Positions 36,336-41,497 of a stretch of 64,000 nt of DNA are shown piece after piece. The notes below the pieces were generated by a model. That model was not told the origin of the DNA, ran no database searches, and saw nothing but the letters and a program-made list of their open reading frames with translations. Source of the DNA: Pseudobdellovibrio exovorus JSS (GTDB lineage Bacteria > Bdellovibrionota > Bdellovibrionia > Bdellovibrionales > Bdellovibrionaceae); assembly GCF_000348725.1 (NCBI RefSeq), contig NC_020813.1, positions 1,240,001 through 1,304,000 of the forward strand. Reading direction: 5' to 3'. Both the position numbers and the translations under genes were made by a program. Numbering within the stretch: the first letter of the stretch is position 1; every line of letters starts with the position of its first letter.

Positions 36336-37685
36336 ATGTTTGAGAGTTTATCGGATAAAATTTTAGGTTCTGTAAAAAAACTCAGAGGTCAGGCGACGAT
36401 ATCGGAATCGAATATCGAAGAGGCAATTAAAGAGATTCGCATGAGTCTTTTAGAGGCTGACGTAAACTTTAAAGTGGTTAAAAACTTCATTGATCGCGTG
36501 AAAGCTAAAGCCATTGGTGCTGAAGTCATTAAGAATGTTAACCCCGGTCAAATGTTCACTAAAATCGTACACGATGAATTAGTGCAGACATTGGGTGGTG
36601 ATAAAGTTGATGTGAATGTCCGTGAAAATCCATCGGTGATCATGATGGTGGGTTTGCAAGGTGCGGGTAAAACAACATCGACAGCGAAACTGGGATTGTA
36701 TCTACGTCAAAAGTTAGGAAAAAAAGTAGGATTTGTGCCAGCCGATATCTATCGTCCGGCAGCGATTGAGCAACTTCAAATTTTGGCCAAACAAAATGGA
36801 TTCAGTTGTTTTTCTTCTACTACAGAAATGAAGCCAGAAGATATTTTAACACAGGCGTTGGCTTGGGCTAAAAAAGAAATGATTGATGTTCTGTTGTTGG
36901 ATACTGCGGGTCGCTTGCAGATTGATGACGAGCTGATGAAAGAGTTGGAAGATCTAAAACAGGTGATCACTCCTACCGAAATTTTATTGGTTGCAGATGC
37001 GATGTTAGGTCAACAAGCCGTAAGCGTGGCTGAAACCTTCCATCAACGCCTTGGACTGACAGGGCTTGTGTTGACGAAGGTAGATGGTGATGCCCGCGGT
37101 GGAGCGGCTCTTTCGATTCGTGAAATGACGGGTATTCCTATTAAATTTATGGGGGTCGGAGAAAAAGTCTCTGCATTAGAGGTCTTCCATCCTGATCGCT
37201 TAGCTGGTCGTATCCTTGATATGGGTGATGTTCTTTCCTTGGTCGAGAAGGCTCAGGAAGTGATGGACCACCAAGAGGTCGAAAAATCAGCGAAAAGAAT
37301 GATGAACAATGAGTTCACATTAACGGATTTCTTATCCCAAATTCAGCAATTGAAAAAAATGGGCGGCCTCGAGAGCATGTTGAAGTTTCTTCCGGGGATG
37401 GGTGAGATTTCAAAACAGATGAAAAATATGACCCCTCCGGACAGCGAAATGAAAAAGATTGAGGCCATTATCAACTCGATGACGATTCAAGAGCGTGAAG
37501 ATCACAGGGTATTAAATGGCTCACGGCGTCAAAGAATTGCGGATGGAAGCGGAACTCGGGTTCAGGATGTGAACAAGCTCATCAAACAGTTCGAGGAAGC
37601 GAAAAAGATGATGTCTGGCATGATGAAGATGGGTTTGGGAAAAGCTATGAGGGGTGGAAAATCGCCTATGAAATTTCCTTTTTAA
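36336..37685 (+). CDS. ffh: Signal recognition particle protein Ffh
   Basis: The 449-residue GTPase has the N domain, the G domain with GLQGAGKTT, DTAGR and TKVDGDARGG, and a Met-rich M domain (about 300-440) that binds 4.5S RNA and signal sequences. It targets nascent membrane proteins to FtsY and SecYEG. The gene heads the ribosomal/RNA-modification block but is separated from rpsP by a promoter. A TAAGGAG-type ribosome binding site precedes the ATG. Confidence 0.97.
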   Translation: MFESLSDKILGSVKKLRGQATISESNIEEAIKEIRMSLLEADVNFKVVKNFIDRVKAKAIGAEVIKNVNPGQMFTKIVHDELVQTLGGDKVDVNVRENPSVIMMVGLQGAGKTTSTAKLGLYLRQKLGKKVGFVPADIYRPAAIEQLQILAKQNGFSCFSSTTEMKPEDILTQALAWAKKEMIDVLLLDTAGRLQIDDELMKELEDLKQVITPTEILLVADAMLGQQAVSVAETFHQRLGLTGLVLTKVDGDARGGAALSIREMTGIPIKFMGVGEKVSALEVFHPDRLAGRILDMGDVLSLVEKAQEVMDHQEVEKSAKRMMNNEFTLTDFLSQIQQLKKMGGLESMLKFLPGMGEISKQMKNMTPPDSEMKKIEAIINSMTIQEREDHRVLNGSRRQRIADGSGTRVQDVNKLIKQFEEAKKMMSGMMKMGLGKAMRGGKSPMKFPF

Positions 37686-37829: not shown

Positions 37830-38123
37830 ATGGTCGTTATTCGTCTAGCACGCGTTGGTAAGAAACATGATCCTGCGTACAGAATCACTGTTGCAGACTC
37901 TCGCAAGTATGTTACTGGTCGCTTCATTGAAGTTTTAGGCACTTACATTCCATCTCCAATGGGTAAACAACAAAAAGTTACCTTGAATGTTGAAAAAGCT
38001 AAAGACTGGTTAACAAAAGGTGCTCAGCCTTCAGATACAGTACGTCACGTATTGAAATTGGCTGGAGTTGAGACAAAGCCGTCTAAAAAACAAGTAAAAG
38101 CAGCTAAAGCTAAAAAAGCTTAG
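37830..38123 (+). CDS. rpsP: 30S ribosomal protein S16
   Basis: The 97-residue protein begins MVVIRLARVG and follows the S16 pattern through the PAYRITVADSR segment, with a Lys/Ala-rich tail. The start at 37830 is set by the family alignment and by AAGGAAGG nine bases upstream; the longer frame from 37788 adds residues not found in S16. First gene of the rpsP-khpA-rimM-trmD-rplS block. Confidence 0.97.
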   Translation: MVVIRLARVGKKHDPAYRITVADSRKYVTGRFIEVLGTYIPSPMGKQQKVTLNVEKAKDWLTKGAQPSDTVRHVLKLAGVETKPSKKQVKAAKAKKA

Positions 38124-38243
38124 TTATCTGCTCATTACTGGCGATATTTGTTTTAAATAAATGAAATAAGATTTAAAATAATTGTTGTCAGTAATACCTG
38201 TTTTTTGCAAAAATACGCACAAGCAGATGCGGGAGTCGTATAA

Positions 38244-38483
38244 ATGGACAATTTAAAAGAACTTGTTGAACATATGGCTAAATCTCTGGTGGATAAACCA
38301 GAAAATGTAGTTGTGGATGAAATCCCAGGTCAACAAACCACGTTACTAGCTCTAAAAGTAGATAAAGAAGACCTTGGTAAAGTCATCGGGAAACAAGGAA
38401 AAACAGCAGCGGCAATGAGAACTATCATCCGCGCGGCAGGAACTAAGCTGAATAAGCGCTACCACTTAGATATCGTTGAGTAG
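38244..38483 (+). CDS. khpA: KH-domain RNA-binding protein KhpA
   Basis: A 79-residue protein consisting of one KH domain, with the GxxG loop as IGKQGKT at about 49-55. It fits the KhpA (YlqC) family, which forms an RNA-binding dimer, often with KhpB, and is commonly placed between rpsP and rimM. The 120-base gap before it contains an ATTACTG/CAGTAAT inverted repeat but no clear promoter. A strong terminator follows it directly. Confidence 0.93.
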   Translation: MDNLKELVEHMAKSLVDKPENVVVDEIPGQQTTLLALKVDKEDLGKVIGKQGKTAAAMRTIIRAAGTKLNKRYHLDIVE

Positions 38484-38511
38484 TTCCCTTTAAGATAAAT
38501 ACAAGATAAAT

Positions 38512-38544
38512 AAAAAAGGAGCTTTTAGGGCTCCTTTTTTATTT
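38512..38544 (+). terminator. Intrinsic terminator between khpA and rimM
   Basis: AAAAAAGGAGC (38512-38522) pairs with GCTCCTTTTTT (38530-38540) around a seven-base loop, followed by more T: a textbook Rho-independent terminator. It ends about 12 bases before the rimM start codon, inside what should be one operon, so it may set the ratio of rpsP-khpA to rimM-trmD-rplS message. Confidence 0.88.
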
Positions 38545-38555
38545 TGGATTAGGTC

Positions 38556-39092
38556 ATGGCAGAGTTGAATCAAAAAGAGTGTGTGCATGTTGGTAAAGTT
38601 ATGGATGCCCATGGTATCCGTGGCGATCTATATATTCTTATTTTTTCTGGCGATGTTTCTTGGGGTAGTAAGTTGAAGCAATTGGCTTTAAAGCGCTCTG
38701 ATGAACAGCAGTCTTTTGACATTCAAAAAGTTAAATCCTTCAAAAAAGGCTTTATTGTAAAACTAGCAGGCTTTGATGATCGCAATCGTGCCGAAGAGTT
38801 TAAAGGAGCCGAAGTGTGGGTTCCTGAGGACCTTTTCGTCGCTCAACAAGGCGAGTCTTTATATCTACGTGAAGTTTTGAATTTCACCGTCAAAGACGAG
38901 CATTTAGGGCCCATAGGACAAGTCGAATCCTTTTCATCAAACGGTATTCAGGATTTGTTAGTTGTGCAGGCGGCAGATAGCTCTGTCTACGAGATCCCAT
39001 TTGTTGAAGATTTTGTTGTCGCGATTGATTATGAACAGCAGACAATTTTGATGTCGTTACCGGAAGGGCTTCTGGAGATCAATCGTGACTGA
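38556..39092 (+). CDS. rimM: Ribosome maturation factor RimM
   Basis: The 178-residue protein has the RimM N-terminal beta-barrel (VGKVMDAHGIRGDL near 12-25) and a C-terminal PRC-barrel domain (about 100-170). It helps assemble the 30S head by binding S19. The gene overlaps trmD by eight bases, showing coupling. Only a weak AGG stands before its ATG because the terminator occupies the upstream space. Confidence 0.95.
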   Translation: MAELNQKECVHVGKVMDAHGIRGDLYILIFSGDVSWGSKLKQLALKRSDEQQSFDIQKVKSFKKGFIVKLAGFDDRNRAEEFKGAEVWVPEDLFVAQQGESLYLREVLNFTVKDEHLGPIGQVESFSSNGIQDLLVVQAADSSVYEIPFVEDFVVAIDYEQQTILMSLPEGLLEINRD

Positions 39093-39813
39093 GCTTGAAG
39101 ATCGCCGAGTTCAGCTCAAGATCATCACCCTGTTCCCAGAGCTCATTCGCAGCTATCTGGGCGATGCTCTTATTGCTAAGGCATTAAATAAAAACCTTCT
39201 TTCAATAGAGCTGATTCCTTTACGTGATTTTTCAGACAATAGTTACAAATCTGTGGACGAGGCACCATTCGGCGGTGGCGATGGGATGTTAATACGTGCC
39301 GATATTCTTGAAAAAGCTCTGCTGACTATTCTTGATAAGGCGAAAAATCAAAAGGTGATCTATTTTACGCCGCAAGGGAAGCTGTTCACTTCGGCTGAGG
39401 CACAGCAAATAGCGCAAGATCAGATGGGTGCCGACGAGATTATTTTGATCTGTGGTCGCTACGCAGGTGTGGATCAAAGATTTATTGATCAGTATGTGGA
39501 TGAAGAGTGGTCTATTGGGGACTATGTTCTGTCTGGCGGAGAAATCCCGGCCTTGGTGGTGATTGAGGCGGTTTCTCGCTTTGTCCCTGGTGTTCTGGGG
39601 CAGTTGCAGTCGGCAGAAGAGGATTCTTTGCAAAACCAACTTTTAGAAGCTCCTCAATACACTCGTCCTCAAGTTTGGAATGAACAGAAGGTTCCAGACG
39701 TGCTGTTGTCAGGTGATCATAAAAAAATTAAAGAGTGGAAGCAGAAGATGGCTTTAGAAGTGACTCAGAAAAAAAGACCGGACTTATTGAAAAAGAGGAA
39801 CAGTGAAACGTAA
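39085..39813 (+). CDS. trmD: tRNA (guanine-37-N1) methyltransferase
   Basis: The 242-residue SPOUT enzyme shows DEAPFGGGDGM near 52-62, the knot segment ICGRYAGVDQRF near 117-128 and SIGDYVLSGGE near 137-147. It methylates G37 of tRNAs to prevent frameshifting. It overlaps rimM upstream and the PF09936 methyltransferase downstream by 11 bases, so all three are translated from one message. Confidence 0.97.
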   Translation: MTELEDRRVQLKIITLFPELIRSYLGDALIAKALNKNLLSIELIPLRDFSDNSYKSVDEAPFGGGDGMLIRADILEKALLTILDKAKNQKVIYFTPQGKLFTSAEAQQIAQDQMGADEIILICGRYAGVDQRFIDQYVDEEWSIGDYVLSGGEIPALVVIEAVSRFVPGVLGQLQSAEEDSLQNQLLEAPQYTRPQVWNEQKVPDVLLSGDHKKIKEWKQKMALEVTQKKRPDLLKKRNSET

Positions 39814-40372
39814 AGCACCATTGGCTGTGGCCCTACTTCATTATCCGACTAAAGATCGTGCTGGCGATTTGGTTGCCACGAACATCACCAATTTTGATAT
39901 ACATGATATTGCGCGCGCATGTCGTGTTTATGGTATTGATCGCTATTACATTGTTCACCCCACAAAAGAACAACTGATGTTTGTTGAGAGGGTCTTAGAT
40001 CACTGGAATGTGGGCGAGGGGTCTAAGTTCAATCCTATGCGTAAAACGGCCTTAAGGGACGTCAGAACGGCTGAAAACCTACAAGCTGCTATGAAGGACT
40101 GGGGGCATGAAAATGCCCGTGTGGTGGTGACCAGCGCCCGTAGCCTTGAGGGACAAGAGCGTTTTAGCTTTCAGAGCTTCCGTGAAGTCCTAGAAACCGA
40201 AAATCAGCCCTATTTTCTTGTATTTGGGACAGGGTTTGGTTTGACGCAGGATTTCATGAAAACCTGCTATGGAGTTCTAGAACCGATCAAGGGAGCCTCG
40301 ACTGATGACTATAGGCATCTCAGTGTTCGTTCGGCAGTGAGTATCTGTCTTGACCGACTCCTCGGGTCATGA
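39803..40372 (+). CDS. PF09936-type SAM-dependent RNA methyltransferase
   Basis: The 189-residue protein begins with the conserved ALLHYPTKDRAG segment and ends with a SPOUT-like knot (VFGTGFGL near 145-152 and SVRSAVSICLDRL at the end). This matches the COG4752/PF09936 family found between trmD and rplS in several delta-like lineages. The target RNA is unknown; family context suggests tRNA or rRNA. It overlaps trmD by 11 bases. Confidence 0.85.
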   Translation: MKRKAPLAVALLHYPTKDRAGDLVATNITNFDIHDIARACRVYGIDRYYIVHPTKEQLMFVERVLDHWNVGEGSKFNPMRKTALRDVRTAENLQAAMKDWGHENARVVVTSARSLEGQERFSFQSFREVLETENQPYFLVFGTGFGLTQDFMKTCYGVLEPIKGASTDDYRHLSVRSAVSICLDRLLGS

Positions 40373-40433
40373 TAATTCATATTCTCTTTAAATAAGAAAG
40401 ATTAATTTATTTAGGTAAAGTTAGGGATTGAAC

Positions 40434-40871
40434 ATGGCAAAAGCAAAAGCAACTAAAACAACAAAGGCTAGAACTAAAAAGACAACAGCATCTAGCTTTA
40501 CAGGAAAAGAAACTAATCTTGTTAAACGTGTAACAACTAGAAAAGTAAGCCCTAAAATCGCGGCTTTCAGCCCTGGTGATACAGTAAATGTTTACGTTAA
40601 AGTTGTTGAAGGCGAAAAAGAGCGCGTTCAGTTGTACAAAGGCGTAGTAACTAAAATTCAAGGTCACGCACATAAAACTTTCACAGTTCGTAAGATCTCT
40701 GCAGGTGTTGGTGTTGAAAGAACTTTCCCATTCAGATCTCCAGCTATTGAATCAGTAGAATTAGTGAGTCACGGTAAAGTTCGTCGCGCTAAATTATACT
40801 ACTTACGTGATCTTGATGGTAAAGCAGCTCGTATCGAATCTGAGCTTGCGACTCCAGACTCTGCTGAGTAG
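40434..40871 (+). CDS. rplS: 50S ribosomal protein L19
   Basis: A 145-residue protein whose residues about 30-140 follow L19 ([13 protein letters not shown] and the [15 protein letters not shown] closing segment). It has an extra N-terminal Lys/Thr/Ala-rich arm of roughly 25-30 residues. The start at 40434 is set by AGGGA seven bases upstream; a TTG at 40428 would add two residues. L19 lies at the 30S-50S interface. Confidence 0.95.
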
Positions 40872-40882
40872 TTTCTTCAGAA

Positions 40883-41497
40883 GTGAACTTTTCGCTTCTT
40901 GATCCAAAAATAGACCTCAAGAATTTTCCGACTCCGTTTATCGGAGTCGATGAAGTGGGGCGCGGCTGTCTGGCCGGCCCTGTTGCAGCCGCCGCTGTTA
41001 TCTTTAAATCTGAAATCGACACGGAAAAATATAAAGACTCAAAACTTCTTAAAGAAGAAGAACGTGAAGAACTTGCGCTCAGTATCCAGCAACATCATCT
41101 GGTCTGTGTGGGCTGGGCGAGTGTGGAAGAAATTGATAAGATCAATATCTTGCAAGCCAGCTTCCTTGCGATGAGACGTGCAATAGCAGGTCTTCAAATC
41201 ACAGCAGGAAGTGTTCTCGTGGATGGACGGGACATCATTCCGAATTTGGAATCTTTTAAGCAACAGGCCATCATTCAAGGTGATAAAAAGGTAAGTCTAA
41301 TTTCTGCAGCATCAATTGCGGCCAAAGTGGCTCGAGATCATTTGATGAAAGAGATTGCGCAGGATTTTAATGCTTACGGATTTGAAAAACACAAAGGATA
41401 CGGAACTCCTTATCATCGTCAAAAAATTCAAGAGATGGGTCCGTGTAAGTGGCATCGTCAAAGCTTCGGCGGAGTCAAAGAATTCATCGTTAGATAA
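40883..41497 (+). CDS. rnhB: Ribonuclease HII
   Basis: The 204-residue enzyme carries the acidic catalytic set in GVDEVGRG (near 21-28), LVDGRD (near 112-117) and KVARD (near 149-153). It removes ribonucleotides and RNA-DNA hybrid RNA from DNA. It starts with GTG 11 bases after rplS, and its 3' part overlaps the yraN frame. Confidence 0.95.

Follow-up and report, generated by a model that had tools for sequence, protein, structure and literature searches.

We analysed a 64,000-nucleotide stretch of Pseudobdellovibrio exovorus JSS (referred to as the window), in which a string of plus-strand genes runs from ffh through the genes for ribosomal protein S16 and a KH-domain protein to three genes for RNA modification, ribosomal protein L19 and RNase HII (Table 1). 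The order ffh-rpsP-khpA-rimM is kept in those loci of the family that span it, and by homology search 62 of the 65 loci of the family contain all three of rpsP, khpA and rimM; in the other three, rpsP is unmatched and the locus is short upstream. Between khpA and rimM lies a hairpin followed by a T-tract. A hairpin placed in this way, within a conserved string and flanked by genes that run in the same direction, is the arrangement expected of a partial terminator.

Table 1. Genes and sequence elements at the khpA-rimM junction and in the surrounding gene string.
Feature	Position	Strand	Description
ffh (SRP54)	36336..37685	+	Pfam PF00448, PF02978, PF02881; upstream neighbour of the cluster
rpsP (ribosomal protein S16)	37830..38123	+	Pfam PF00886; upstream of the terminator
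khpA (single KH-domain RNA-binding protein)	38244..38483	+	Pfam PF13083; last gene before the terminator
Terminator hairpin (predicted)	38508..38544	+	15-bp stem, 5-bp GC core 38518-38522 / 38530-38534, 7-nt loop
T-tract TTTTTTATTTT	38535..38545	+	11 nt, T-rich; partly base-paired to the A-rich 5' arm
rimM	38556..39092	+	Pfam PF01782, PF24986; first gene after the terminator
trmD (tRNA m1G37 methyltransferase)	39085..39813	+	Pfam PF01746; overlaps rimM
PF09936 RNA methyltransferase	39803..40372	+	Pfam PF09936; overlaps trmD
Weak candidate rplS promoter	40350..40376	+	TTGACC-15 nt-GATAAT
rplS (ribosomal protein L19)	40434..40871	+	Pfam PF01245
rnhB (RNase HII)	40883..41497	+	Pfam PF01351

On the plus strand, positions 38508-38545 read AAATAAAAAAGGAGC-TTTTAGG-GCTCCTTTTTTATTTT. 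The GC core pairs GGAGC with GCTCC across the loop TTTTAGG (38523-38529) and is followed directly by TTTTTTATTTT; A/T pairs lengthen the core stem to its full 15 pairs, and the stem is identical on either strand. The whole structure fits into the gap between the khpA stop (38483) and the rimM ATG (38556), with 10 nt between the T-tract and the ATG. The segment 38500-38560 folds at -19.3 kcal/mol (z -4.59; 0/200 shuffles equally stable), and a longer segment, 38484-38575, gives a z of -2.31 with 6/200 equally stable shuffles. A GC-rich hairpin with a U-rich tract directly after it, on the transcribed strand, is the signature of an intrinsic (Rho-independent) terminator. The sequence-only reading of this DNA had placed such a terminator directly before rimM, and both hairpin and T-tract are confirmed here, at a distance of 10 nt from the ATG compared with its estimate of about 12. 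A search of the whole window against Rfam gave no family above the cut-off.

To describe the strength of the site we used the d'Aubenton Carafa formula, in which a score >0 denotes a terminator and which was tuned on E. coli terminators. The window site scores 13.6 and ranks tenth from the weakest among the 24 terminator-like sites in a sample of the genome. We rejected the idea that it is an unusually weak terminator for this genome, as 9/24 sites score lower overall and 15/24 have a lower T-score; the T-tract is strong and need not be leaky. In a related genome (G022), the T-score of the junction is 3.82, which falls in the lower fifth of the 43 terminator-like sites of that genome. A tuned, weak U-tract is unsupported for the window site because the site does not stand out among its genome's 24. 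In 464 kb of the window genome, a survey that rests on heuristic, rough gene calls considered gaps between same-direction genes that were no shorter than 20 nt. It found a terminator-like site in 6/143 of them (7/143 without a length cap), and the khpA-rimM site is the nearest of the six to a start codon, at 21 nt from the GC core, the next being at 32 nt. In 400 kb of G022 the same survey gave 17/109 gaps, with the nearest site 34 nt from the start codon.

We then turned to the relatives, scoring each locus from the stop codon of khpA to slightly beyond the start of rimM. Of 66 family genomes, 64 proved to contain RimM; they yield 65 loci because one genome bin (G004) contributes two; these are different khpA-rimM loci (L005 and L014), so that the bin may be mixed or may carry a duplication. 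A similar structure before rimM in relatives, which the sequence-only reading had suggested looking for, is present in most of the family: the junction scores above zero in 55/65 loci, compared with 8/1950 shuffled gaps, and 13 of 20 genera have the terminator in at least one genome. By the same score and in the same loci, only 2/61 rpsP-khpA gaps and 1/62 ffh-rpsP gaps pass, the rpsP-khpA set leaving out the three loci in which rpsP is unmatched and a single gap shorter than 20 nt.

The stem sequence differs among genera, while pairing and the plus-strand T-tail are retained. In the window's genus the core alternates between GGAGC/GCTCC and GGAGTC/GACTCC. In an alignment of 21 sequences from Bdellovibrio (genus g4; 24 sequences minus three near-duplicates), 93.5% of stem cells are paired and both sides have changed in 6/14 pairs, giving a covariation score that exceeds 500/500 shuffles; the outermost pair is broken in 11/21 sequences. 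In the window the tail scores are practically a tie (5.24 on the plus strand, 5.25 on the minus strand), and a minus-strand function was considered. We rejected it: the window site is symmetrical, yet the minus tail is not conserved in relatives, and the plus-strand T-tail beats the minus-strand tail in 52/55 terminator-bearing loci.

The position of the terminator is not universal. It is absent from 10/65 family loci (L009, L044, L046, L047, L052, L057, L059, L061, L064 and L065). In six of these (L009, L044, L046, L057, L061 and L065) khpA and rimM overlap or lie at most 3 nt apart, and for L057 no usual rimM start codon could be placed; L047 has a hairpin without a T-tail, L059 scores -30.8 and L064 contains a run of N. 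Beyond the family we used a phylum sample of 191 genomes; khpA is present in 184, and 40 loci were picked among these. Of the loci from the order's other families 13/22 pass, and of those from the rest of the phylum 4/18; for one passing locus in the former group and three in the latter, the RimM profile finds no rimM downstream, and the 200 nt after khpA were scored. Among named loci outside the phylum or the family group, 1/17 passes, the 32 close named relatives not being recounted. Start codons differ as well: rimM lacks an ATG in 5/9 terminator-less loci vs 4/47 terminator-bearing loci among those that could be classified, a post hoc comparison that ignores phylogeny (Fisher p 0.003) and leaves 9/65 loci unclassified. 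In L009, L046, L057, L061, L064 and L065, several of which have rimM overlapping or nearly touching khpA, no rimM ATG is in reach, and TTG or rarer codons are the only starts available.

Two observations concern khpA and the gap before it. The rpsP-khpA gap (38124-38243) is unusually stable when folded (-32.8 kcal/mol, z -4.76, 0/200 shuffles) without a terminator-grade T-tail, and 26/61 of the corresponding family gaps have z below -2; the gap may hold a separate RNA structure, for instance one that serves in processing or regulation. KhpA itself has 3 to 10 matches per genome in Bdellovibrio (for example L206-L227), vs one in the other sampled family members. The extra matches show 22 to 40% identity in three genomes that were compared match by match, and it is likely that small KH-domain proteins have expanded in this genus of predators.

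As a proxy for expression, and no more than that, we used codon bias. The reference was a set of 26 open frames on the minus strand at the main ribosomal cluster; most of them encode ribosomal proteins, and a few others were retained. Percentiles were taken against 310 background genes. Before the terminator, ffh, rpsP and khpA stand at the 71.3, 99.4 and 88.7 percentiles; after it, rimM, trmD and the PF09936 gene stand at 54.2, 62.6 and 2.9; further on, rplS lies above all 310 background genes and rnhB at 37.4. The fall thus coincides with the terminator and the rise with rplS. The earlier proposal that rpsP and khpA are kept above the modification enzymes is consistent with the codon usage of rimM, trmD and the PF09936 gene, which is that of a less expressed set; it overlooked that the strongly biased rplS lies within the block placed behind the terminator. 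No gene of the cluster exceeds rplS in codon bias, although the genes directly before it are weakly biased, and a dedicated promoter is therefore expected, like P3 of Bacillus subtilis (see below). Read-through by itself would hardly suffice for L19, and rplS is probably topped up by such a promoter. In the gap 40373-40433 no rplS promoter could be established. The candidate in Table 1 is weak: its first hexamer lies in the coding end of the PF09936 gene, its spacing is short and its second hexamer is absent in most relatives, the motif recurring in a few close ones (L157, L159 and L166, and L160 with GATATT).

Leaky terminators that adjust gene dosage are familiar from other systems. In E. 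coli, the rplL-rpoB attenuator and the rpsU-dnaG terminator are both leaky, lie after a ribosomal gene and lower expression of a non-ribosomal gene downstream, although they belong to other operons in another phylum. The E. coli operon for S16, RimM, TrmD and L19, which presumably lacks khpA, answers the same need, with RimM and TrmD kept far below S16 and L19, but it does so by a translational rather than a transcriptional step. The closest parallel comes from Bacillus subtilis, whose ylqC gene we take to be khpA. For the ylxM-ffh-rpsP-ylqC-ylqD-rimM-trmD-rplS cluster of that organism, one study describes transcripts that end at a terminator, T1, downstream of ylqC, others that pass T1 through ylqD-rimM-trmD(-rplS), and a separate promoter, P3, for rplS (PMC10100781). 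The likeness to the window lies in the junction, just after khpA in the same gene cluster, and the difference in ylqD, which separates T1 from rimM in B. subtilis whereas rimM directly follows khpA in the window. We claim no homology between T1 and the window terminator, and termination in the window is a prediction from sequence. The idea that the genes after the hairpin depend on read-through, put forward in the sequence-only reading, gains support from this counterpart, for which read-through is described (PMC10100781).

Partial terminators are also described between other genes. In B. subtilis one separates the co-transcribed secA and prfB, the genes not being the same as those considered here (PMC8073009). 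A study of an archaeon reports that partial terminators set ratios in ribosomal operons, and that when they were mutated or removed, expression of the genes behind them rose and growth became slower; the likeness is a partial terminator in a ribosomal operon, whereas polymerase and signals are archaeal and the genes are others (PMC10450193). Partial terminators of this sort are thus known already, and what this case contributes is the long-term conservation of position within the family and the placement right at the rimM start. A search of the open-access literature, to which few subscription journals belong, found no report of a khpA-rimM terminator in Bdellovibrio.

The strong T-tract of the window invites a reading in which a full terminator closes an rpsP-khpA unit and rimM is a separate unit, with a promoter overlapping the hairpin and a leaderless or nearly leaderless mRNA; TATTTT at 38540-38545 would put the start near the ATG. 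The 10 nt past the terminator offer no space for an ordinary promoter, as had been argued from the sequence, and the best sigma70-like match in the window for starts past the hairpin loop reaches 6/12 (AGGAGC, 17, TATTTT). Across the 40 loci whose core lies no more than 52 nt from the rimM start, the mean best promoter score is 5.4 vs 7.0 in shuffles. No promoter-like excess is therefore seen downstream of the hairpin in these short-spacer loci, with three exceptions (L024, L025 and L048) whose matches of 8.5 to 9 of 12 beat nearly all shuffles and fit a separate rimM unit. Spacers longer than 52 nt, found in 15/55 loci, would also leave room for a promoter, and there the mean is 7.5 vs 7.7 in shuffles. 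With read-through transcripts described at the same junction in B. subtilis (PMC10100781), a separate rimM unit appears unlikely. A second reading keeps rimM in the operon and makes the terminator conditional, tuned by KhpA, a ribosomal protein, NusA/NusG or another factor, in which case rimM-trmD would track growth state, as between attack and growth phase. The RNA-binding KhpA is encoded beside the hairpin, and a 2024 review calls the regulation of the trmD operon, that of S16 and L19, unknown (PMC10931766); both facts speak for such control. Its expected marks did not appear, however. In the 55 loci the longest upstream complement averages 3.8 vs 4.0 in shuffles for the 5' arm and 4.4 vs 4.5 for the 3' arm, so that no conserved antiterminator pairing was found upstream of the hairpin, and the window holds no Rfam match that would indicate a riboswitch. 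Loop and stem sequences vary among genera, which speaks against a site bound by a sequence-specific protein. The conditional terminator of the sequence-only reading thus finds no support here and seems improbable. With neither a promoter excess nor an upstream complement found, there is no support for ordinary initiation past the hairpin or for attenuation of the classical kind; an unusual promoter or control by a protein may yet be at work.

Strong stems can block exonucleases, which speaks for a hairpin that stabilises the 3' end, or that serves as a processing site splitting the mRNA into halves after transcription, without terminating. An RNase Y site elsewhere in the same B. subtilis operon, mentioned in PMC10100781, points in the same direction. 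A stabiliser would not require such a tail, and yet the plus-strand T-tail is kept alongside the stem in relatives and surpasses the minus-strand tail in all but three of the 55 loci; we hold this explanation to be very improbable. That the hairpin is a chance structure without function can be given almost no credence. A loose terminator pattern does turn up in AT-rich DNA of this kind (10 found vs 7.6 expected in 10 kb), but chance is at odds with 55/65 junctions against 8/1950 shuffles, with the near absence of terminators from the neighbouring gaps (2/61 and 1/62) and with the covariation.

The likely explanation, in our view, is that the ffh-rpsP-khpA-rimM-trmD-PF09936-rplS-rnhB string contains an intrinsic terminator that is constitutive and leaky. 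RNA polymerase arriving from promoters upstream of khpA would form the hairpin and U-tract just past khpA; a fraction of polymerases would halt at 38540-38545, leaving a stable rpsP-khpA mRNA, and the remainder would continue into rimM-trmD-PF09936. The efficiency of termination would thereby be incomplete, rimM would depend on read-through, and S16 and KhpA would be held at a constant surplus relative to the modification enzymes, with rplS probably boosted by a promoter of its own. Such a terminator is probably a leaky brake that yields less RNA-modifying enzyme than upstream ribosomal protein. It is a long shot that the dose of rimM-trmD in Bdellovibrionales is controlled by an attenuator, conserved in position, whose efficiency KhpA senses or sets, with terminator-less lineages compensating through the khpA-rimM overlap and a weak start codon; if it were true, such an attenuator would link the modification of tRNA and ribosomes to an RNA-binding protein in the course of the predatory cycle. 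For the leaky terminator that we favour, the significance lies in its persistence at one junction across most of the family despite turnover of the sequence. Because the junction is kept in this way and is matched in B. subtilis, our results suggest that a drop in transcription behind khpA is a solution that recurs.
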